DNA of 40,947 nucleotides, taken from Syntrophomonadaceae bacterium. GTDB lineage: Bacteria; Bacillota; Dethiobacteria; DTU022; PWGO01. A model generated the notes under the pieces. That model saw nothing but the letters and a program-made list of their open reading frames with translations. It had not been told where the DNA came from and did not search any database. Made by a program: the position numbers and the translations under genes. Shown here one piece after another: positions 8,065 through 17,822 of this stretch. Each line of letters starts with the position of its first letter. The stretch's first letter is position 1. The stretch lies in contig PUKQ01000159.1 of assembly GCA_003550565.1 (NCBI GenBank), positions 1-40,947 on the forward strand. Direction: 5' to 3'.

Positions 8065-8443
8065 TCCTTCACCCTGTTCATGGCTTCGTTTTTGTTGCCG
8101 CCTGTTCCCCTGTGAAACTTAAGGGTTATATTTGCCTTACTTTATAATATTACGATTAAGAGTTCCTCTAATCCTTCTTGTTTTGAGTATTATCTCGAAG
8201 GATAGTGCTTGCAGTGTTATTATAAATAAAAGGGATGTTTTATTCCTTGAAGAATTTAATAAACACTGGAAAATGAAAATTTAGATATTTGTTTCGGAAA
8301 GTAAGCGCCATATAAGCTTTTAAGAACAGCTAAAACCCGGGACACCCTATATTTGCTGAAGCGATTTTGGGGAAAAGATAAATATTTATGAAGGCAGAAT
8401 TCTCTTGTTGCCGGTGCAAGGAAGAAAGGAGGAAACTTTTTTA

Positions 8444-9628
8444 ATGATTTTGAATGATATTAGAGTGCTCGACCTCACCAAGGTGCTTGCCGGGCCTTTT
8501 TGTGCTATGCAATTGGCTGATTTTGGCGCGGAAGTGATTAAAGTAGAAAATCCTCATACGGGAGGAGATGATTCCAGGCAATTTGGCCCTCATAGCAATG
8601 ATACCAGCGTTTACTTCATGAGTATAAACCGTAATAAAAAAAGTATTGCCCTTGACCTGAAATCTTCTGCCGGGCAGCAATTATTTAAAGATCTTGTGTG
8701 TGAGGCGGATGTAGTGATGGAAAATTTTCGCGCGGGGGTGATGGATGATTTGGGATTGGGTTATGAAGAGTTAAAAAAAATAAATCCGGGTATTGTTTAT
8801 GCTTCTTCTTCGGGATTCGGACACAGTGGCCCTTATCGGGATCGTCCGGCTTACGATGCTGTTATTCAGGGAATGGGCGGTATTATGAGTGTAACCGGTG
8901 AAAAAGGGGGGAGTCCTACCAGGGTGGGAGTTTCTATAGGGGATCTTGCTGCAGGGCTTTATCTGGCCTATGGGATTGTCCTGGCCCTTTTACATCGGCA
9001 AAAGACCGGCGAAGGACAGAAAGTTGATGTAGCCATGCTTGATTGCCAGGTTGCTCTGCTGGAAAATCATATTTCCCGTTACTTGACTGCTGGAGAGGTT
9101 CCTGAGCCCATCGGAAACCGACATCCTTCCCTGGCCCCGTTTGGTTCTTTTCGAACGTGTGACGGTTATATAATAATTGCGGCAGGTAATGATGGGCTTT
9201 GGAAGGAGCTTTGCCGGGTTCTCGGTTGTCCGGGATGGGCTGAAGATCCACGTTTTGCCACTAATTCGTTAAGAGTAGAAAATTACAGCGCATTAGAGGA
9301 GATCCTGGAGCAAAGGCTAATGGAAAAGACCGGCAGGGAGTGGATAGATATATTAGTAAAATCTGGCATCCCGTGTGGCCCTATCAATAGCATTCCCGAT
9401 CTGGTTAAAGATCCTCAGGTGCAAGCGCGGGACATGATTGTAGAGATTGAGAATCCTAATGGCGGTCAGGTTAGTGTTTCCGGCGTGCCGGTTAAATTAT
9501 CGCATACACCCGGTGATATTACTAAAACTGCTCCTTCCCTGGGAGAAGATACTTATGAGGTTTTGCAAACTTTGCTGGGTTTATCTGACAAAGAAATTAA
9601 TCGTTTGAAAGAAGAGGGAATTGTTTAA
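8444..9628 (+). CDS. CoA transferase family III (CaiB/BaiF)
   Basis: RVLDLTKVLAGPFCAMQLADFGAEVIKVE, GxGDDSR-type loop, NRNKKSIALDLK, RPAYDAVIQGMGGIMSVTG (conserved Asp). ATG at 8444 follows aggaagaaaggaggaaac; track start 8405 is an unlikely TTG. Confidence 0.93.
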   Translation: MILNDIRVLDLTKVLAGPFCAMQLADFGAEVIKVENPHTGGDDSRQFGPHSNDTSVYFMSINRNKKSIALDLKSSAGQQLFKDLVCEADVVMENFRAGVMDDLGLGYEELKKINPGIVYASSSGFGHSGPYRDRPAYDAVIQGMGGIMSVTGEKGGSPTRVGVSIGDLAAGLYLAYGIVLALLHRQKTGEGQKVDVAMLDCQVALLENHISRYLTAGEVPEPIGNRHPSLAPFGSFRTCDGYIIIAAGNDGLWKELCRVLGCPGWAEDPRFATNSLRVENYSALEEILEQRLMEKTGREWIDILVKSGIPCGPINSIPDLVKDPQVQARDMIVEIENPNGGQVSVSGVPVKLSHTPGDITKTAPSLGEDTYEVLQTLLGLSDKEINRLKEEGIV

Positions 9629-9734
9629 GGCGCAACAGAAGTGTAAAAAAAGCCTTCCATAAAATTAAGATAAATAAATTCATTTTTAGATTATTTATCC
9701 GGGGGAATACTGTTAATTGTGGTAATTTTCCTGC

Positions 9735-9740
9735 TATAAT
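9735..9740 (+). promoter_or_regulatory. Possible extended -10 promoter
   Basis: TGCTATAAT; no strong -35, consistent only with an extended -10. Confidence 0.3.
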
Positions 9741-9866
9741 GTATTTAGCATTTTAATGAAGAACATTCTGGTTTTGTTTATAGAGTAAAGGCAATTTAGA
9801 TTAAATGTTTTTTTAGAGGCAGACCTATTATGCTTGGGGTTAGTTTTCTCAAATGAGGTGAAGACT

Positions 9867-10742
9867 GTGCAGGAAGTTTATTTAGAGACAAAACCTGTGG
9901 CGGTGAAGGCATTTTTTGAGCCTCGGGAAGATTTACAAACAAGAATGGGAGTTTATCAAGGGATTAGCTACTGTGATGCGGTAAGAAGAGCGGCGCAAGA
10001 TGAAGAATTACTTGTTTTAGCTGATTCCATATTAACTTGCCAGTGGTCTCCGGTGGTATTGGGTTTAAAAAAACCGGCAAATAATTTTGAAAAAAGGTTA
10101 GCTCCCCGTATGGAAGGAGTTTGGGGATATTACCTTTCTTCACTGCTGTCTTTTTCTAAAAGAGGCCTGGAACCTGATATCGTAATTATAAGGGGGAGTC
10201 CGCAACTATTAAGGCTTATTCTTTCTCGGATAGGATGGCATAATAGTGCCCTGAATTTAGCCGGAGAACTGGACAAAAGTGCTCTGGGGATTCTCGGTAA
10301 CCATCGTTTTACTTTGAAATCTACCTTAACCATAAACTTCAACAAATTATTTTATTTCCTCAGCAAGAAAGAATGGTGGATGAAGTTTACCGAGTCCATA
10401 TTTCGTTATCCTTTTGCCTGTAATGTTTTTGATCGAATTATTAACGCTTTCATGGCCGATATGTCTATTTGCCGCAATTCTACCGTTATTCCTTACCAAA
10501 CAGGCCTTGTTAATGTTTCTCACTTTTGCGCCGGGGGTATTGGATGGGGTTTAAACCGGCCCGATTATATGACTTCAGGGTTTCCTTACTCTTTGTTCAA
10601 TGTTCTTAGGGAGCAAAATACTGTAAAGTGGCAGGTCAGCAGAAAAGAAATTTTTGAGAGGCCATTGATGCCGGAAAGAAGTATTGGTTGTCGTTTAGAA
10701 TGCTGTTGTGATCATTCTGAAACCGGGAAAAATAAGAAATAG
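9867..10742 (+). CDS. DUF169-family protein
   Basis: ETKPVAVKAFFE, GISYCDAVRRAAQDEELLVLADSILTCQWSPVVLGL, LEPDIVIIRGSPQLLRLIL resemble DUF169. GTG start at 9867 after TGAGGTGA. Confidence 0.6.
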   Translation: MQEVYLETKPVAVKAFFEPREDLQTRMGVYQGISYCDAVRRAAQDEELLVLADSILTCQWSPVVLGLKKPANNFEKRLAPRMEGVWGYYLSSLLSFSKRGLEPDIVIIRGSPQLLRLILSRIGWHNSALNLAGELDKSALGILGNHRFTLKSTLTINFNKLFYFLSKKEWWMKFTESIFRYPFACNVFDRIINAFMADMSICRNSTVIPYQTGLVNVSHFCAGGIGWGLNRPDYMTSGFPYSLFNVLREQNTVKWQVSRKEIFERPLMPERSIGCRLECCCDHSETGKNKK

Positions 10743-10757
10743 AAAGGAAAAACCCCA

Positions 10758-11969
10758 ATGGCAAATAGTAATAAAAAAGGCGGTATCAGGCTGGAAGACA
10801 TGTTTGCTTCGGAGAAATGCGATTATTGTGGGGAATGCCTGGCAAAATGTGATTGGATTAAATGTAACGCAGAAGAAGGAAGCGATTTTATTGTTCGCCT
10901 GGTAAAGGGGGAGCATGTTCCGGAAGTAATGAATGTATGTACGAACTGCATGAATTGTGACAGTTACTGCCCTCAGGGTGCTCGACCTTACAACCTTATT
11001 ATTTATCGCTGGTATGAGCGTTATCAAAGAGAAGGAATACCGCCCGTTTTTAAAAGAGCGCTCCCCTTTCACGGTGAGGTAAATGTATGGTCTAAATTGG
11101 AGAAGTGGCTGAGCCGGAGAGAACGCAAAAATTTGCATAGATGGAAAAATACTTCCGGTGCTGAAGAAATGCTTTTCCTGGGTTGTAATCAGCATTATGA
11201 TCCTTATATTGTGGATTCCCGATTATTTGCCGGAATCCCCGTTTTCAGTGATCGCAGTTATTGTTGCGGTGAGCCTGCTTTCCGATTGGGGCTTTTAGAT
11301 GAGGCCCGGCGGTGTGCCATCAACCTACAGGAAAAGCTTAAAGGCTTGGGTGTGAAACGTCTCCTGGTTTTTTGCCCCGCATGCTACAATACACTTACTA
11401 ATCTTATTCCCAATTCTTTCGGTATTAATTATGAAGTAGAGCTTGTGCCGATAGTTTCATGGCTAAAAGAACGTTTGGAAGGTGGATCTATTCCTATCAA
11501 AAAATCACTTAATGTGAGCGTGAGTATACAGGACAGTTGCCATGGCAGCAGTTTGGGAAAAGAATATTTACAGGAAACCAGAGATGTGCTGACTATGATT
11601 GGTGCTTCTGTCAAGGAGATGGAGCATAGTTGGGAAAATATGCGTTGCTGTGGTTTAGGCTATGCCGCTACCCGTTACAGTTTAGTGGATGTGGTTTTCA
11701 AAGGAGTAAAACGATTGCGGGAAACCGGGCAGACAGGATCTGAATTAACAACTACCTATTGCAATGGCTGCTATTTTACCATGAATATGATGCGCATGCT
11801 TTCTCCCGGCTCACCACCCGTATATCACTTTGTAGAGCTCATCCAAATGGCCATGGGGGAAAAACCGGTGCGAAAGATTAACAGCCGCCGGTATGCTATT
11901 GTGCTTGCTGCCTTAGAAGCGGTTAAATTTGAGTTGTTAAAGCCGGGAAAGAAAAAAATCGAGGTATAG
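10758..11969 (+). CDS. (Fe-S)-binding protein with CCG domains (HdrD/GlpC/GlcF-like)
   Basis: Two ferredoxin motifs (CDYCGECLAKC, CTNCMNCDSYCPQ) and CCG elements (YCCGEP, FCPACYN, DSCHGSS, RCCGLG, YCNGCY). Confidence 0.85.
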   Translation: MANSNKKGGIRLEDMFASEKCDYCGECLAKCDWIKCNAEEGSDFIVRLVKGEHVPEVMNVCTNCMNCDSYCPQGARPYNLIIYRWYERYQREGIPPVFKRALPFHGEVNVWSKLEKWLSRRERKNLHRWKNTSGAEEMLFLGCNQHYDPYIVDSRLFAGIPVFSDRSYCCGEPAFRLGLLDEARRCAINLQEKLKGLGVKRLLVFCPACYNTLTNLIPNSFGINYEVELVPIVSWLKERLEGGSIPIKKSLNVSVSIQDSCHGSSLGKEYLQETRDVLTMIGASVKEMEHSWENMRCCGLGYAATRYSLVDVVFKGVKRLRETGQTGSELTTTYCNGCYFTMNMMRMLSPGSPPVYHFVELIQMAMGEKPVRKINSRRYAIVLAALEAVKFELLKPGKKKIEV

Positions 11970-12059
11970 GGGGAAGGGGTTATACAAAGAGTGTGTTCCT
12001 GATGTGAAAATAGGAAAGCAAGTAAAATTATACGCGGGTGCTAAAGGAGTGAATAGAAA

Positions 12060-12848
12060 ATGAGTGAAGGCAAAATAACGGTAGAGGTAGAGGGTCATGT
12101 TTTATTGATAGGGATAAAGAGGACAGATAAATTAAATGCTTTTGATGTAGAAATGTACCGGGACCTTGCTCGGGCCTACGGAAAGCTTCACCATACTCGA
12201 GATTTACGGTGTGGTTTGCTTTTTGCCCATGGGGAACATTTTACTGCCGGTTTGGAACTTATAAAGTGGGCGGGCAGTTTTGGAGAAGGGAATTTTCCGG
12301 AGCTCCCGGAAGGCTCCATAGATCCCATGGGCCTGGATGAAGACAACAGGCTGGCAAAACCCATGGTAATGGCAGCTCAGGGGATATGCTTTACCATTGG
12401 TTTAGAGCTTTTATTGGCTACAGATGTGCGTGTGGCTGCTAAAGATGTGCGTTTTGGTCAGATTGAGGTCAAGAGAGGGATATATCCGGTAGGAGGGGCT
12501 ACTGTCCGCTTGTTTGAGGAGGTGGGATGGGGAAACGCCATGCGTTATTTATTGACTGGCGATGAAATTCATGCCGAAGAAGCTCTCCGCCTGGGGCTTG
12601 TCCAGGAAATAACCGAGCCCGGCGAACAATACGGAAGAGCGCTGGAACTAGCAAATAGAATAGCGAAACAGGCTCCCCTTGCCGTGCAAACTTCTTTGCT
12701 GTCGGCACGAAGAGCCAGGGTAGATGGAACCAGAAAGGCTATATCGAGACTTCTTCCCGATCTCATGCCTATAATGCAAAGCCAGGACGCGCTTGAGGGC
12801 TTGCAATCTTTTAAAGAAAGGAGAGAGGCAGATTTTAAAGGAGAGTAA
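12060..12848 (+). CDS. Enoyl-CoA hydratase/isomerase (crotonase) family
   Basis: KLNAFDVEM, FTAGLEL, TIGLELLLATDVRVAAKDVRFGQIEVKRGIYPVGGATVRL; two Glu 20 residues apart match the hydratase pair. Confidence 0.9.
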   Translation: MSEGKITVEVEGHVLLIGIKRTDKLNAFDVEMYRDLARAYGKLHHTRDLRCGLLFAHGEHFTAGLELIKWAGSFGEGNFPELPEGSIDPMGLDEDNRLAKPMVMAAQGICFTIGLELLLATDVRVAAKDVRFGQIEVKRGIYPVGGATVRLFEEVGWGNAMRYLLTGDEIHAEEALRLGLVQEITEPGEQYGRALELANRIAKQAPLAVQTSLLSARRARVDGTRKAISRLLPDLMPIMQSQDALEGLQSFKERREADFKGE

Positions 12849-13214
12849 TTATCCAGGCTACTTCATCAATATTCCTATGTGATAGTTAAAGCTCTACTTT
12901 TGATTGGCACTTAAATTAGGCCACGATACTTTCTCTGTTAAAATACTATTTTTATCTGTTTTATTAGTTTTAACTTAAGCATGCGGCCAAAAGTGGTGGA
13001 AAACTTTTCCCCTGTTGTCATGTATTTTTGCTTTTATTTTATGCATGAAATTTTGCCATAAATTTGAATGTTTATATATATTTTCTTATTTTGGGAAGGA
13101 ATAAGTAAGTGCCCTATAGAAATAAAAACTTAAAGGCATTAAGGATCCTTCAAAAGCTGCTATATATACGGAGGACAAGAATAACCAAATAAATGAGGAG
13201 GGATTAAAAAGAAG

Positions 13215-14375
13215 ATGAATAAAGTAGCTATAGTGGGGATAGGTTATACTAGTTTCAGATCTACATCGCAGGACGTATCTTACAGGGAAATGATCTTTGA
13301 AGCTGCCAAAAAATGTTATGAAGATGCAGGTGGGGTTCACCCTCAAAGCATCGATGCATTTGTAGCTTCTTCGGAAGATTTCATGGAAGGGGTCAGTATT
13401 GCGGACGAGTATGTGCCCGATCAGCTGGGAGCTGTTCTCAAACCGGTACAGAGCATAGCGGGGGATAGTATGCAGGGTATTGCCTCTGCTATGATGCAAA
13501 TTCAAACCGGAGAAATGGACCTGGTTGCTGCTTCAGCATTTTCCAAAGCTTCGAATGTTTTGAATCCCAACAACGTGGTTTCTTATGCTTGTGATCCAAT
13601 CTATGTGAGGCCCCTGGACGAAAACCCAAATATTATTGCCGGTATGGAAATGAACCGTTATCTTTATGAAACCGGAACAACAAGGGAACAATGCGCGGAA
13701 GTAGTAGTGAAAAATAAATATAACGGTTTATTCAACCCATCGGCAGTTTATGGGGCCAAGATAGAATTGGAAGATGTGCTTTATGCCCATGAAATTTTTT
13801 CGCCTTTGAGTGAATTGGATGTAAGTCAGGATGCTGACGGAGCTATTGTTTTACTTTTGGCTTCGGAAAATAAAGCCCATAAATATACCCAAAACCCTAT
13901 TTGGATAAAAGGTATGGGTTGGGCTACGGACACGCCGAACCTCGATTATCGGGAAAAGGGCTGGGGAGATGCGTTTTATGCTACCCTTGCTGCCCAGAAA
14001 GCTTATAGTATGGCCGGTATTAATGCTCCCTATAAAGAGATTGATTTTGCTGAAATTGACGATACTTTTTCCTATAAAGAACTCCAACACATAGAAGCGC
14101 TGAATATTTGTGGGCGCGGAGAAGCCGGAAGCTTGTTTAAACAGGGATTCTTCAGCAAAGAAGGTGAGTTTCCGGTTAATGTTTCCGGTGGAAACCTGGG
14201 TGTAGGTTATCTTCATGAAGCTAACGGATTGCAAAAGTTTATGGAAGTAGTCCTGCAGTTGAGGGGTGAAGCAGGCAAACGGCAGTTAAATAAGGTAAAA
14301 ACAGGATTAGCTTTTGCCTGGCGTGGAATTCCTACTGCAACGGGAATTGTCGCTGTTTTAAGCAATGACGGGTAG
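13215..14375 (+). CDS. Thiolase-fold protein (SCP-x/Ltp2-like), predicted non-thiolytic
   Basis: VAIVGIGYTSF, EAAKKCYEDAG, SGGNLGVG, QLRGEAGKRQ. Cys-motif position reads IAGDSMQG and GHP position reads GYLH. Confidence 0.85.
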   Translation: MNKVAIVGIGYTSFRSTSQDVSYREMIFEAAKKCYEDAGGVHPQSIDAFVASSEDFMEGVSIADEYVPDQLGAVLKPVQSIAGDSMQGIASAMMQIQTGEMDLVAASAFSKASNVLNPNNVVSYACDPIYVRPLDENPNIIAGMEMNRYLYETGTTREQCAEVVVKNKYNGLFNPSAVYGAKIELEDVLYAHEIFSPLSELDVSQDADGAIVLLLASENKAHKYTQNPIWIKGMGWATDTPNLDYREKGWGDAFYATLAAQKAYSMAGINAPYKEIDFAEIDDTFSYKELQHIEALNICGRGEAGSLFKQGFFSKEGEFPVNVSGGNLGVGYLHEANGLQKFMEVVLQLRGEAGKRQLNKVKTGLAFAWRGIPTATGIVAVLSNDG

Positions 14376-14434
14376 AGTATTTATCAAATATTTTAGCTTT
14401 TTATCCAATCAAATAAAACGGAGGGTTGTGTATC

Positions 14435-15592
14435 ATGAGAAAAGTTGGTGTAATAGGGGCGGGAATGACCAATTTCGTCCGAAGAGCTCAGGAAACACCG
14501 AAAGAGTTGTCCTACGAAGCTACAAAGGCTGCCCTGGATAGTTGTGAGATGAACTTGGAAGATATAGAATGTGTGGCGCACGGTACTGCACCGGACGCTT
14601 TTGACGGAATTCACCAAAAAGGGGAATACCTTGCTGACGGTAGCGGCGGTTGGAATAAACCAACTATGCGTGTTTTTGTTGGCGGCGCTACCGGGGTTCA
14701 TGCTCTTATTCATGGCTGGTATCATGTTGCTTCCGGCATGTTTGACACCTGCCTGGTGGTCTGTGAAGAGAAAATGTCCAGTGCCATGCCGCATGCTCAG
14801 GGTTTTTTCCTTACCATTTTCGATCATACCACGGAAAGGGCATTGGAGCCTACTTTGCTCTGGATTTTTGCCATGGAAATGAACAGGTATATGCAGCGCT
14901 ATGGCTATACCAAAGAAGACATGGCGCGGGTTGCTGTTAAGAATAAAAACCAGGGTAGAAAACACCCCGCTTCCCAATTTAAGGAAGAAGTTACCCTGGA
15001 AGAAGTTTTAAATTCGGAAGTTATGGCTTACCCGGTGAGCAGGCTTGATGTAAGCCCTGTTTCTGACGGAGCTGCGGCGGTGGTGCTGGCTGCAGAAAAC
15101 GTGGCCCGGCAGGTAACAGAACAACCGGTATGGATAGAAGGAGTAGGATGGTGCCTGGATACCGCTTACTGGGCTACCAAAGACTTATCATATCCGCGTT
15201 ATCTGGAAAAGGCTTCGAAGATGGCTTATGATATGGCGGGCATTACCGAACCCGCTAAACAAATTAATATTGCGGAGCCTTACGATCCTTTCGATTATAA
15301 AGCTTTGCATCACATGGAAGGCCTTCAATTGTCACCGCGGGGCAAAACAGTGGAGTTGCTGAAAGACGGACATTTTGATCAAGATGGCAACCTTCCTATG
15401 TGTCCTTCAGGAGGCCTCCTGGGTGTAGGTAATCCCATTGCCGCTGCCGGTACTATGAAGGTTTGTGAGCTTTTCTGGCAGTTAAGGGGAGAAGCAGGCG
15501 AAAGGCAAGTTCCCGGAAATCCGAAATATGGTGTGTGTCAAGCTTGGGGAGATTTGATGCAGGTTAGTTCGGTAGCCGTAATGGGTGTTTAA
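14435..15592 (+). CDS. Thiolase-fold protein (SCP-x/Ltp2-like), second paralogue, predicted non-canonical
   Basis: VGVIGAGMTNF, YEATKAALDSC, SGGLLGVGNPIAAAG, QLRGEAGERQ. Cys-motif position reads VGGATG. ATG at 14435 fits the ggagg better than GTG at 14426. Confidence 0.85.
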   Translation: MRKVGVIGAGMTNFVRRAQETPKELSYEATKAALDSCEMNLEDIECVAHGTAPDAFDGIHQKGEYLADGSGGWNKPTMRVFVGGATGVHALIHGWYHVASGMFDTCLVVCEEKMSSAMPHAQGFFLTIFDHTTERALEPTLLWIFAMEMNRYMQRYGYTKEDMARVAVKNKNQGRKHPASQFKEEVTLEEVLNSEVMAYPVSRLDVSPVSDGAAAVVLAAENVARQVTEQPVWIEGVGWCLDTAYWATKDLSYPRYLEKASKMAYDMAGITEPAKQINIAEPYDPFDYKALHHMEGLQLSPRGKTVELLKDGHFDQDGNLPMCPSGGLLGVGNPIAAAGTMKVCELFWQLRGEAGERQVPGNPKYGVCQAWGDLMQVSSVAVMGV

Positions 15593-15642
15593 TTATATTT
15601 TATTATGGCAAATATTTTAAACAGGAAGGTGGAGAAAGACTG

Positions 15643-16158
15643 ATGGAGCATACTAATTTTATCAGAGGCGGTACAGCCTTATCGGCTAAAGATGTAGAGC
15701 AAAATAAGGCGTTTTCGGTAGAAGATGAGCTGGCATGTAGATATGCCTGGGATACAGGAGTAGGTGTTGGAAGATATCTTGAAGAACTTAAGGAAGGTAA
15801 TATTATCGGTAAAAAATGCCGCAAATGTCACCGGATTATGCTGCCCGCGCGTCTCTTTTGTGAATTATGCTTTCGGCCTACCGATGAATGGGTATACGTT
15901 AAAGACACCGGAGTGGTGAACACTTTTTCCATTTGCCAGGTCAATTGGGATGCCAGCCGGGTTGAGCCCGGGGAAAAACCTCATTTGCCCGCAGTTATTG
16001 AGATAGATGGTGCTTCGAAGGGTATGGGGATTTTGCATCGTTTAGGTGAAGTGGATCCGAAAGATATCAAAATTGGTATGAAAGTAAAAGCAGTTTGGAA
16101 GCCTAAAAGACAGCGGATAGGCTCTATAACCGATATTAATTATTTCAAACCTTACTAA
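15643..16158 (+). CDS. Zn-ribbon/OB-fold DUF35 protein
   Basis: CRKCHRIMLPARLFCELC zinc ribbon, DTGVVNTFSI, IGMKVKAVWKPKRQRIGSITDI OB region. Confidence 0.88.
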   Translation: MEHTNFIRGGTALSAKDVEQNKAFSVEDELACRYAWDTGVGVGRYLEELKEGNIIGKKCRKCHRIMLPARLFCELCFRPTDEWVYVKDTGVVNTFSICQVNWDASRVEPGEKPHLPAVIEIDGASKGMGILHRLGEVDPKDIKIGMKVKAVWKPKRQRIGSITDINYFKPY

Positions 16159-16176
16159 AGAGGGAGGATTATTTAA

Positions 16177-16674
16177 ATGGCTATACTGGAAAGAATAACT
16201 AAAAACGTAAATAATAAGTACTGGGACTCCGGCGAAAATAATTTTCCCAAAACAGACCGTTTTCCCGTGAAAAACCGTTATACTGCAGGGATGGCCGGGC
16301 AAAAGTTTTTGGAAGGAATAAAGGAAGAGGCTAAAATTTACGGAACCAGGTGTGAAAAATGTAATGTTACTTTTGTGCCGGGAAAATTGTATTGTGAAAG
16401 ATGTTTTGAACGCCTTTCTGATAGCTGGGTGGAAGTGGGCAATTCCGGCACCGTCCATACTTTCACTGTAGCCTGGGTAGAAAAGGACGGAAGTGCCAAA
16501 AAGAAACCTTCCATTATTGCTGCTATTAAGATTGCCGATGGATTTATTTTACACCGGTTGGAAAATTGTGCACCGGAAGAGGTAAAAATCGGCATGGAAG
16601 TAAAGGCCAAATTTAAACCCAAAAATCAGCGCAAAGGCCATCTCATGGATATTTCCGGTTTTCATCCGGCATAA
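16177..16674 (+). CDS. Zn-ribbon/OB-fold DUF35 protein, paralogue
   Basis: CEKCNVTFVPGKLYCERC, NSGTVHTFTV, IGMEVKAKFKPKNQRKGHLMDI. Confidence 0.88.
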   Translation: MAILERITKNVNNKYWDSGENNFPKTDRFPVKNRYTAGMAGQKFLEGIKEEAKIYGTRCEKCNVTFVPGKLYCERCFERLSDSWVEVGNSGTVHTFTVAWVEKDGSAKKKPSIIAAIKIADGFILHRLENCAPEEVKIGMEVKAKFKPKNQRKGHLMDISGFHPA

Positions 16675-16753
16675 ATGAAATGCCAACCGGTTCTTTTTAT
16701 AGAAGAGGGAATATTGTCAGTATATAATAAAAGAATTTTCTCCTGAGATTGCC

Positions 16754-16798
16754 TAAATTAGCGGTGGGAAGAAAATTCTTACCGCTAATTTATATTTT
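16754..16798 (+). terminator. Long hairpin after DUF35 genes, probable terminator or attenuator
   Basis: TAAATTAGCGGTGGGAA-gaaaa-TTCTTACCGCTAATTTA, 17-bp stem with two G-U pairs, then tatttt. Confidence 0.6.
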
Positions 16799-16829
16799 AG
16801 GGGCTTTTCTTACGAGAAAGGGGAATATA

Positions 16830-17822
16830 ATGTACACTGGTTTTGTGATAGCTGTATTATTAATGATATTTCTTGTTTTCTTCATAAATAAAATGAGTAT
16901 GCAAAGAGCAGGCAAAATCAGGGCAGAAGAAGAAATTGAAAACATGCATTTTGCAAAACTTTCCCCTTTCGGGATAGTAAAAAATCTTTCTATTCTCCCC
17001 CTGGTAGATTATTATGCAGAGAGGGATGACTTAAAAACCGAACCGGGAGTTTCTTTCCTGATCAAGGCTGACAATACTACCATACTTATGGATGTTGGGC
17101 GGAACATGAAATCCGAACATCCTTCCCCTTTGTTAACAAATATGGAGTTATTAGGCGTAAAAATTGAAGACATAGATATCCTGTTTTTTAGCCATCTGCA
17201 TCTGGATCACGTGGGTGGGATGGAAGAACAAAAACAACGCACTTTTAGTATTTCCAATGGAGAGGTAAAATTAGGAGAGATACCTGCTTATGCCCCTGCA
17301 GATTTAGCACCTTCATCCTGGAATTCGGGGCCGAAGGTTAATGTGATCAAGGAGCCCACCGTGTTAGAACCCGGCATAGCAAGTATAGGAGCTCATCCCC
17401 GCTATTTATTTATGATGGGTTACACCCTGGAGCACAGCCTGGCAATTAATGTAAAGGGAAAGGGTATTGTTTTGATTGTAGGTTGTGGGCATCAAAAAGT
17501 GGAAAGAATAATAGAAAGAACCAGAGAAATATTCGATGAGCCTATATATGGTATAATCGGAGGCTTGCATTATCCAATTTATGGAGGCAGGCTCATGAAA
17601 GGGCCCTTTGATCTGCAGTATTTAACCGCTTCCGATACCCCCCCCTGGGATGGTCTAAAGGAAGAAGACGTAAAAAATGCCCTGGAAACAATAAAACAAG
17701 TAAATCCCCAAATAATTGCGCTATCTCCTCATGACAGTTCTGACTGGGCTCTTGAACATTTCAGGCAAGCTTTCCAAGAAAAATACATTGATATTAAGGT
17801 AGGCAAGGAAATTATCATTTAA
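16830..17822 (+). CDS. MBL-fold metallohydrolase with N-terminal TM segment
   Basis: FFSHLHLDHVGGMEE (HxHxDH), VGCGHQKVE, GGLHYP. ATG at 16830 after gaaaggggaatata; track start 16749 lies in the hairpin. Confidence 0.85.
   Translation: MYTGFVIAVLLMIFLVFFINKMSMQRAGKIRAEEEIENMHFAKLSPFGIVKNLSILPLVDYYAERDDLKTEPGVSFLIKADNTTILMDVGRNMKSEHPSPLLTNMELLGVKIEDIDILFFSHLHLDHVGGMEEQKQRTFSISNGEVKLGEIPAYAPADLAPSSWNSGPKVNVIKEPTVLEPGIASIGAHPRYLFMMGYTLEHSLAINVKGKGIVLIVGCGHQKVERIIERTREIFDEPIYGIIGGLHYPIYGGRLMKGPFDLQYLTASDTPPWDGLKEEDVKNALETIKQVNPQIIALSPHDSSDWALEHFRQAFQEKYIDIKVGKEIII

Follow-up and report, generated by a model that had tools for sequence, protein, structure and literature searches.

A conserved unit of paired cysteine-less thiolase-like and DUF35 genes in anaerobic-type bacteria, a candidate CoA-dependent retro-aldolase

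Introduction

Contig PUKQ01000159.1 of a Syntrophomonadaceae draft genome (assembly GCA_003550565.1) carries a run of eight co-directional genes, ending in two thiolase-like genes without the nucleophilic cysteine and two DUF35 genes, and raises the question of which of these genes belong together and what reaction their products would catalyze. The window, meaning the whole stretch of 40,947 nucleotides analyzed here, is contig C227 of draft genome G000 (2.65 Mb, 96.5% complete, 6.4% contaminated). A sequence-only reading had joined all eight genes into an undescribed pathway of acyl-coenzyme A (acyl-CoA) activation, hydration and retro-aldol cleavage. The observation is real but its boundaries were wrong: the conserved unit is limited to the last four genes, THL1-THL2-OB1-OB2 (13215-16674). 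As judged from the sequences, these four genes probably encode one heteromeric CoA-dependent retro-aldolase of the Ltp3/Ltp4 kind, as a distinct clade found in anaerobes.

Conservation of the four-gene unit

The unit begins with THL1 (13215-14375, + strand), a beta-type thiolase-like gene (Pfam Thiolase_C_1, 95 bits; PRK06066, 468 bits), followed on the same strand by the alpha-type THL2 (14426-15592; Thiolase_C_1, 95 bits; PRK06065, 605 bits against a cut-off of 455), whose open reading frame (ORF) holds an in-frame ATG at 14435. OB1 (15643-16158, +) matches Pfam OB_ChsH2_C (47 bits) and zf-ChsH2, and OB2 (16177-16674, +) matches the same families at 52.5 bits and weakly, respectively. Both are DUF35 proteins of the ChsH2 C-terminal type, with a C-x2-C-x10-C-x2-C zinc ribbon and an OB fold; the four cysteines, numbered C59, C62, C73 and C76 in each protein, are all present in 76 of 78 OB1 orthologues and 70 of 72 OB2 orthologues.

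A search of 60 related genomes recovered a THL2 orthologue (79-85% identity) in 12 order-level relatives besides G000, and a THL2 edge fragment in one more. The same-order relatives are mostly metagenome-assembled genomes (MAGs) named 'Syntrophomonadaceae', many of them sediment-derived, plus one Dethiobacter MAG. In the order-level relatives, OB1 and OB2 follow each THL2, and THL1 precedes it wherever the contig extends. The position 5' of THL1 is usually held by an acyl-CoA dehydrogenase gene (~380 residues) and otherwise by unrelated genes, and the CoA-transferase (CaiB), DUF169, CCG and crotonase (ECH) genes of the window never occurred upstream of THL1 in these 12 relatives. Conservation of all eight genes as one block was therefore not borne out; only the last four are kept across relatives.

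The same unit was found well beyond this order. A relative is encoded in 174 stretches of the genome collection, and the best 80 loci were analyzed; because they were chosen by THL2 similarity, the conservation of THL2 is partly selected, whereas the linkage of the other three genes is not. By title, these 80 loci represent about nine phyla, namely Bacillota, Chloroflexota, Deltaproteobacteria/Thermodesulfobacteriota, Planctomycetota, Acidobacteriota, Armatimonadota, Elusimicrobiota, Bdellovibrio-type bacteria and WOR-3; the carriers are largely MAGs from lineages of anaerobic type. The order THL1-THL2-OB1-OB2 was identical in all 66 loci with all four genes, with median intergenic gaps of 14, 15 and 6 nt, and absent genes mostly corresponded to contig ends (exceptions L073, L125 and L126). 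The median identity of THL2 was 73% (63 loci), and in the same number of loci the pairwise distances of the four genes were correlated (rho 0.54-0.76, permutations ≤0.21), a pattern for which species history alone could suffice. A wider phylum sample contained THL2 in only 5 of 300 genomes, implying that the unit is uncommon in Firmicutes; a Sulfolobus control genome also matched PRK06065. A literature search for DUF35 with thiolase and Chloroflexi found no papers.

The recurring partner of the four-gene block is an acyl-CoA dehydrogenase, encoded near it in 27 of the 80 loci and directly adjacent in 17; CoA-transferase pairs (8 loci), crotonase (5) and methylmalonyl-CoA mutase (5) are less frequent neighbors. 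In one complete genome (L134, G148:C1:1200500-1220400), the dehydrogenase, THL1, THL2, OB1, OB2, an AMP ligase and a CoA-transferase pair form a single run. IpdA/IpdB, a name considered for this pair, was rejected, as NCBIfam gave a weak subfamily match only; the two proteins are a family I (PF01144) pair. G000 itself contains further modules of alpha- and beta-type thiolase-like genes with DUF35 genes on contigs C202 (L032, 1-7000; two in tandem) and C6 (L033); an acyl-CoA dehydrogenase and an AMP-forming ligase are encoded alongside in both cases.

Active site and fold of the thiolase-like proteins

Residue columns were assigned by alignment to SCP2-thiolase and Ltp2 (6OK1, whose numbering gives Y294DHF and Y344). 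The earlier statement that both thiolase-fold proteins are without the nucleophilic Cys was upheld and can be extended, since the GHP His is missing too; neither THL1 nor THL2 has the set of Cys, HDxF/HExF and GHP His of a Cys-dependent thiolase, and with the catalytic residues replaced the pair would be incapable of classical Cys thiolysis. In THL2, Gly87 lies at the nucleophilic Cys, Tyr286 (in YDPF) at the HDxF His, aligned with Ltp2 Y294, and Asn336 at the GHP His, aligned with Ltp2 Y344 (codons at 14684-14686, 15281-15283 and 15431-15433, + strand). This G/Y/N signature was found in 81 of 81 THL2 orthologues and in 16 of 16 further alpha-type rows, compared with C/H/H in 14 of 14 Cys-thiolases and G/Y/Y in the Ltp2-type proteins of the collected set. 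Also invariant in the 81 orthologues are D60, H63, E114, E115, H123, Y291, H295 and H296; Pro288 is invariant as well, and K292 belongs to the 97% conserved set.

THL1 carries D84 at the thiolase Cys position and DDTF in place of HDxF; acidic residues (Asp/Glu) lie close to the Cys column, and the His set is absent. Its catalytic columns are not conserved: among 72 orthologues D283 is kept in all and D282 in 68, and Y332 is Tyr in 15. The invariant signature of THL2 and the lack of a conserved catalytic set in THL1 suggest that THL2 is likely the catalytic (alpha) subunit and THL1 probably a degenerate (beta) partner with a non-catalytic or specificity role. A composite active site of THL2 Tyr286 and THL1 Y332, the latter standing in for Ltp2 Tyr344, fitted ten close orthologues and was dropped given the 15 of 72 count.

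An AlphaFold2 (AF2) model of THL2 from a diverse alignment, with plasmid-record proteins left out, showed a thiolase fold with a predicted local distance difference test (pLDDT) value of 92 and a template-modeling (TM) score of 0.93 to 6ET9; a model from ten close sequences (pLDDT 33) was discarded.

Phylogeny and comparison with known systems

Maximum-likelihood trees of 58 and 51 sequences both separated the alpha proteins, the beta proteins, the Cys-thiolases and the Ltp2-type aldolases into four supported branches. The alpha and beta clades were sisters in the second tree, the beta clade was supported at 98/95 and 99/96, and the Ltp2-like rows formed their own branch (100/99). Alpha and beta also divide into matching module types, as expected if the pair duplicates as one unit. 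Profile models separate the window pair from its actinobacterial relatives: THL2 scored 237 against PRK08313 (alpha; cut-off 514) and THL1 106 against PRK07937 (beta; cut-off 419), whereas a Tsukamurella pair scored 734 and 593. Because these cut-offs were missed, the window pair represents a separate subclade, with THL2 over the PRK06065 cut-off and THL1 just under that of PRK06066.

The actinobacterial loci provide the closest parallel. On plasmid 4 of Tsukamurella, genes for an F420-dependent oxidoreductase, EchA19 (428 bits against a cut-off of 400) and a ligase come first, then those for a double-DUF35 protein (309 residues), the beta (359 aa) and the alpha (390 aa), and last a P450 gene and one for a steroid 3-ketoacyl-CoA thiolase (FadA5-type). 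The corresponding order in Mycobacterium tuberculosis is fadD19, echA19, Rv3521, ltp4, ltp3 (PMC6429209), and by analogy in gene order the beta protein would be Ltp4-like and the alpha protein Ltp3-like. A further study, citing Wilbrink 2012, terms ltp3/ltp4 aldol lyases required for C24-branched sterol side chains (PMC6593523). Like the window, Ltp3/Ltp4 with Rv3521 comprise an adjacent Cys-less pair, two DUF35 domains and an EchA19-like hydratase nearby, and the EchA19 hydratase is a neighbor of ltp4/ltp3 in actinobacteria. The alpha members of the Tsukamurella and S. clavuligerus pairs fall in the G/Y/N clade with THL2 and the beta members in the degenerate clade with THL1. This shared alpha/beta/DUF35 layout makes the word 'undescribed' in the original proposal too strong.

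The window pair nonetheless differs from the actinobacterial pair in its separate subclade (~30% identity), in YDPF versus YVPF, and in the absence of a surrounding steroid gene set. It is accompanied by two separate DUF35 genes, both zinc-bearing, whereas Tsukamurella has one fused protein with a zinc ribbon in one half; the zinc-ribbon cysteines of the Rv3521-type double-DUF35 protein (L141:9042-9971) occur in the second half only and are lost from the first. On Rhodococcus pLP1, an alpha/beta pair follows two dehydrogenases and two MaoC hydratases, with DUF35 and CaiB in an igr-like operon. The 'hypothetical protein' next to the alpha (L132:7084-7998) resembles a shortened, strongly diverged beta.

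Two characterized aldolases share features of the THL2 site. Ltp2-ChsH2(DUF35) (6OK1) has a thiolase fold, a DUF35 partner, Gly for Cys and Tyr at the HDxF His, but differs in Tyr344 (Asn336 in THL2), in lacking a beta-type partner and in its separate clade. In the bile-acid aldolase Sal-Shy(DUF35) (9MYR), Gly likewise replaces Cys and Tyr302 is the proven aldolase base (PMC12329534). Sal also has an amide (Gln352) corresponding to THL2 Asn336, whereas Sal Cys304 is Pro288 in THL2 and the Shy DUF35 zinc site is C3H1 rather than the C4 of OB1 and OB2. THL2 Tyr286 thus coincides with the proven bases Ltp2 Tyr294 and Sal Tyr302.

True thiolases with DUF35 partners are also similar to parts of the unit. 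The archaeal acetoacetyl-CoA thiolase/DUF35/HMG-CoA synthase system (6ESQ, 6ET9) has the closest fold to THL2 (TM 0.93) and a DUF35 partner, but a C/H/H site and no beta-type partner, and the window run has no HMG-CoA synthase gene. The benzoylsuccinyl-CoA thiolase BbsAB (7PXP) combines a thiolase fold with a DUF35-type subunit in anaerobic degradation; unlike THL2, it has C/H/H and lies inside the Cys-thiolase clade, and THL2 reaches 144 bits with the BbsB model, whose cut-off is 750. Acetone-activation clusters of Desulfotomaculum, with a DUF35 gene and acetyl-CoA acetyltransferases, were considered and set aside as a different gene set. Plasmid p3 of Novosphingobium ES2-1 (L138:7577-13684) holds a Cys-thiolase with DUF35 and an Ltp2-type protein (G/Y/Y) with DUF35 in one run, with two crotonase genes and a hypothetical gene between these modules.

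Proposed reaction and alternative explanations

From these comparisons we infer the stoichiometry, reaction, residue roles and substrate class of the complex. The alpha/beta thiolase-fold pair, THL2 and THL1, and two DUF35 subunits would form a heteromer that splits a 3-hydroxyacyl-CoA, supplied by an acyl-CoA dehydrogenase and a hydratase, into a ketone or aldehyde and a shorter acyl-CoA by retro-aldol cleavage. Tyr286, located on the loop where YDPF stands in place of HDxF, would abstract the proton of the beta-hydroxyl, whereupon the C-C bond would break; the acyl-CoA enolate may be retained close to Gly86-Gly87 and Asn336 until another residue protonates it. THL1, having lost the catalytic set, would shape or support the alpha subunit, and the DUF35 subunits may clamp the pair and shape its pocket as in Ltp2/ChsH2 and Sal/Shy. 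In this model, Ltp3 is predicted to be the catalytic half, and Ltp4 the supporting half, of one heteromer.

Such a route would fit beta-branched or ring-bearing acyl-CoAs, in which the tertiary alcohol is not oxidizable to a 3-ketoacyl-CoA. By the established logic of steroid side-chain degradation, a fully substituted beta-carbon calls for aldolytic cleavage, and beta-branched substrates are favored for this reason. A catabolic direction would fit the dehydrogenase, CoA-transferase, crotonase, methylmalonyl-CoA mutase and ligase genes found near the block. Oxygen-free cleavage of beta-branched or ring-bearing acyl-CoAs is known to limit the anaerobic turnover of sterols, isoprenoids and similar compounds, and the block, annotated merely as 'thiolase domain-containing protein' and 'OB-fold protein', is a candidate for this step. 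What is new is a distinct and widespread subclade; the kind of complex, with alpha, beta and DUF35 subunits as in Ltp3/Ltp4, was already known. More speculatively, the unit could be an ancient four-subunit CoA aldolase, extending from Firmicutes and Chloroflexi to a relative of the alpha subunit in Sulfolobus, with a Gly/Tyr/Asn site (plus a further acid) unlike those of Ltp2 and Sal, that serves anaerobes as a general retro-aldol exit for acyl-CoAs with a beta-branch or ring and of which Ltp3/Ltp4 would be a specialized offshoot.

Several observations weigh against a retro-aldolase. THL2 has neither proton donor of the known enzymes, with Asn336 in place of Ltp2 Tyr344 and Pro288 in place of Sal Cys304, and the best folds for the THL2 model were DUF35-partnered true thiolases (TM 0.93), ahead of Ltp2 (0.82) and Sal (0.85). 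Ltp2 joins the Cys-thiolases in the tree rather than alpha/beta, and therefore aldolase activity would have arisen more than once or been lost. In M. neoaurum WIII, 4-HBC was still formed from phytosterols after deletion of ltp3 or ltp4 (PMC10398937), and the aldol-lyase assignment of ltp3/ltp4 rests on genetics.

The same complex might instead run in the condensing direction, joining an acyl-CoA enolate and a carbonyl compound in biosynthesis. The position of the block beside housekeeping genes in some 12-14 Chloroflexi loci would be consistent with this role, as would the degree of THL2 conservation, which resembles core metabolism more than niche catabolism. However, the chemically meaningful neighbors are catabolic and the actinobacterial relatives sit in steroid catabolism, making a biosynthetic role unlikely. 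Another reaction of Cys-free thiolase folds, such as malonyl-type decarboxylation, or a non-catalytic scaffold binding acyl-CoA, is also rather unlikely. The thiolase-like protein TbSLP weakly decarboxylates malonyl-CoA (PMC12329534), and THL2 completes no proven acid/base pair; against this, the active-site motif is invariant throughout the 81 THL2 orthologues, which speaks for catalysis, and CtSal, which shares the Gly/Tyr arrangement, has aldolase activity but does not decarboxylate malonyl-CoA (PMC12329534).

We regard as improbable a dedicated cluster of eight genes, in which CaiB activates the substrate, ECH hydrates it, the THL/DUF35 proteins cleave it and DUF169/CCG handle electrons. 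All eight genes are co-directional in the window, ECH is EchA19-like, and some plasmid loci have CaiB-type genes close to thiolase-like genes of alpha/beta or other type; yet no other examined locus unites the eight, relatives have the THL-OB genes without the other four, with DUF169-CCG and ECH elsewhere, and the run is split by two gaps. Hydration followed by aldolytic cleavage, as originally envisaged, is plausible and consistent with the THL relatives, the active site and the EchA19-like ECH, but CaiB, DUF169, CCG and ECH are not fixed members of such a route. That THL1 and THL2 remain Claisen-type thiolases with an alternative nucleophile is very improbable, for although their nearest folds and sequences in the Protein Data Bank are DUF35-partnered Cys-thiolases, the Cys, HDxF His and GHP His are all replaced in each of the 81 THL2 orthologues and the Cys column, being Gly, offers no substitute nucleophile.

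Other genes of the run and its surroundings

Pfam agreed with the families and order proposed for all eight genes, all on the + strand. The first encodes a CaiB-type class III CoA-transferase (8444-9628, +; 474.6 bits), with an ATG at 8444 in an ORF that opens with TTG at 8405; it was not found at this position in relatives. After a gap of 205 nt (9629-9833) come the DUF169 gene (9834-10742, +; 55.5 bits) and its partner, the CCG Fe-S protein gene (10758-11969, +; 41.7 bits). The DUF169-CCG pair recurs away from the THL block in G046 (C196:1736-3180) and G052 (C6:30236-32087), and is a separate conserved pair without a link to thiolase-like genes elsewhere. Three tandem CCG-type genes occupy one short contig at L151 (G034:C126:503-3972).

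The crotonase gene ECH (12060-12848, +; Pfam ECH, 115 bits) belongs to the PRK06563 subfamily (352 bits, cut-off 261) and resembles EchA19, at 240.7 bits, below the cut-off of 400 for that model. Alignment to solved crotonases confirmed both hydratase glutamates, in the GLE and FGQIE motifs. Its orthologues in relatives (63-72% identity) sit elsewhere, unlinked to the THL block. Three distant loci (L080, L100 and L112) have a more distant crotonase gene directly 5' of the block, and two others (L079 and L093) have one nearby. A hydratase partner is therefore plausible, though not a constant one; ECH is possibly the hydratase for the complex, linked to the block only here. A gap of 366 nt (12849-13214) separates ECH from THL1, and both gaps are present as claimed. 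The run was correctly described as having no 3-hydroxyacyl-CoA dehydrogenase gene, but this is a weak argument against beta-oxidation: G000 has at least three strong PF02737 matches elsewhere, along with 18 acyl-CoA dehydrogenase matches.

In 12-14 Chloroflexi loci (L092, L094, L102, L104 and others), the block stands beside genes for FabD, a FabG-like short-chain dehydrogenase/reductase, Asp23, NusB and TatA/TatC, and a GTPase-like protein of ~440 residues.

The hairpin predicted after the last gene was also recovered: a terminator-like structure 3' of OB2 (16754-16792, +) with a perfect 17-bp stem, a T-rich tail and a fold z of -4.3. A scan for consensus promoters and terminators gave overall counts similar to shuffled sequence (22 versus 23.3 and 12 versus 11.7). 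The called TTG start of the following ORF, with a metallo-beta-lactamase fold (16749-17822), falls within this hairpin; translation more likely begins at an ATG near 16830, which a purine-rich stretch precedes.

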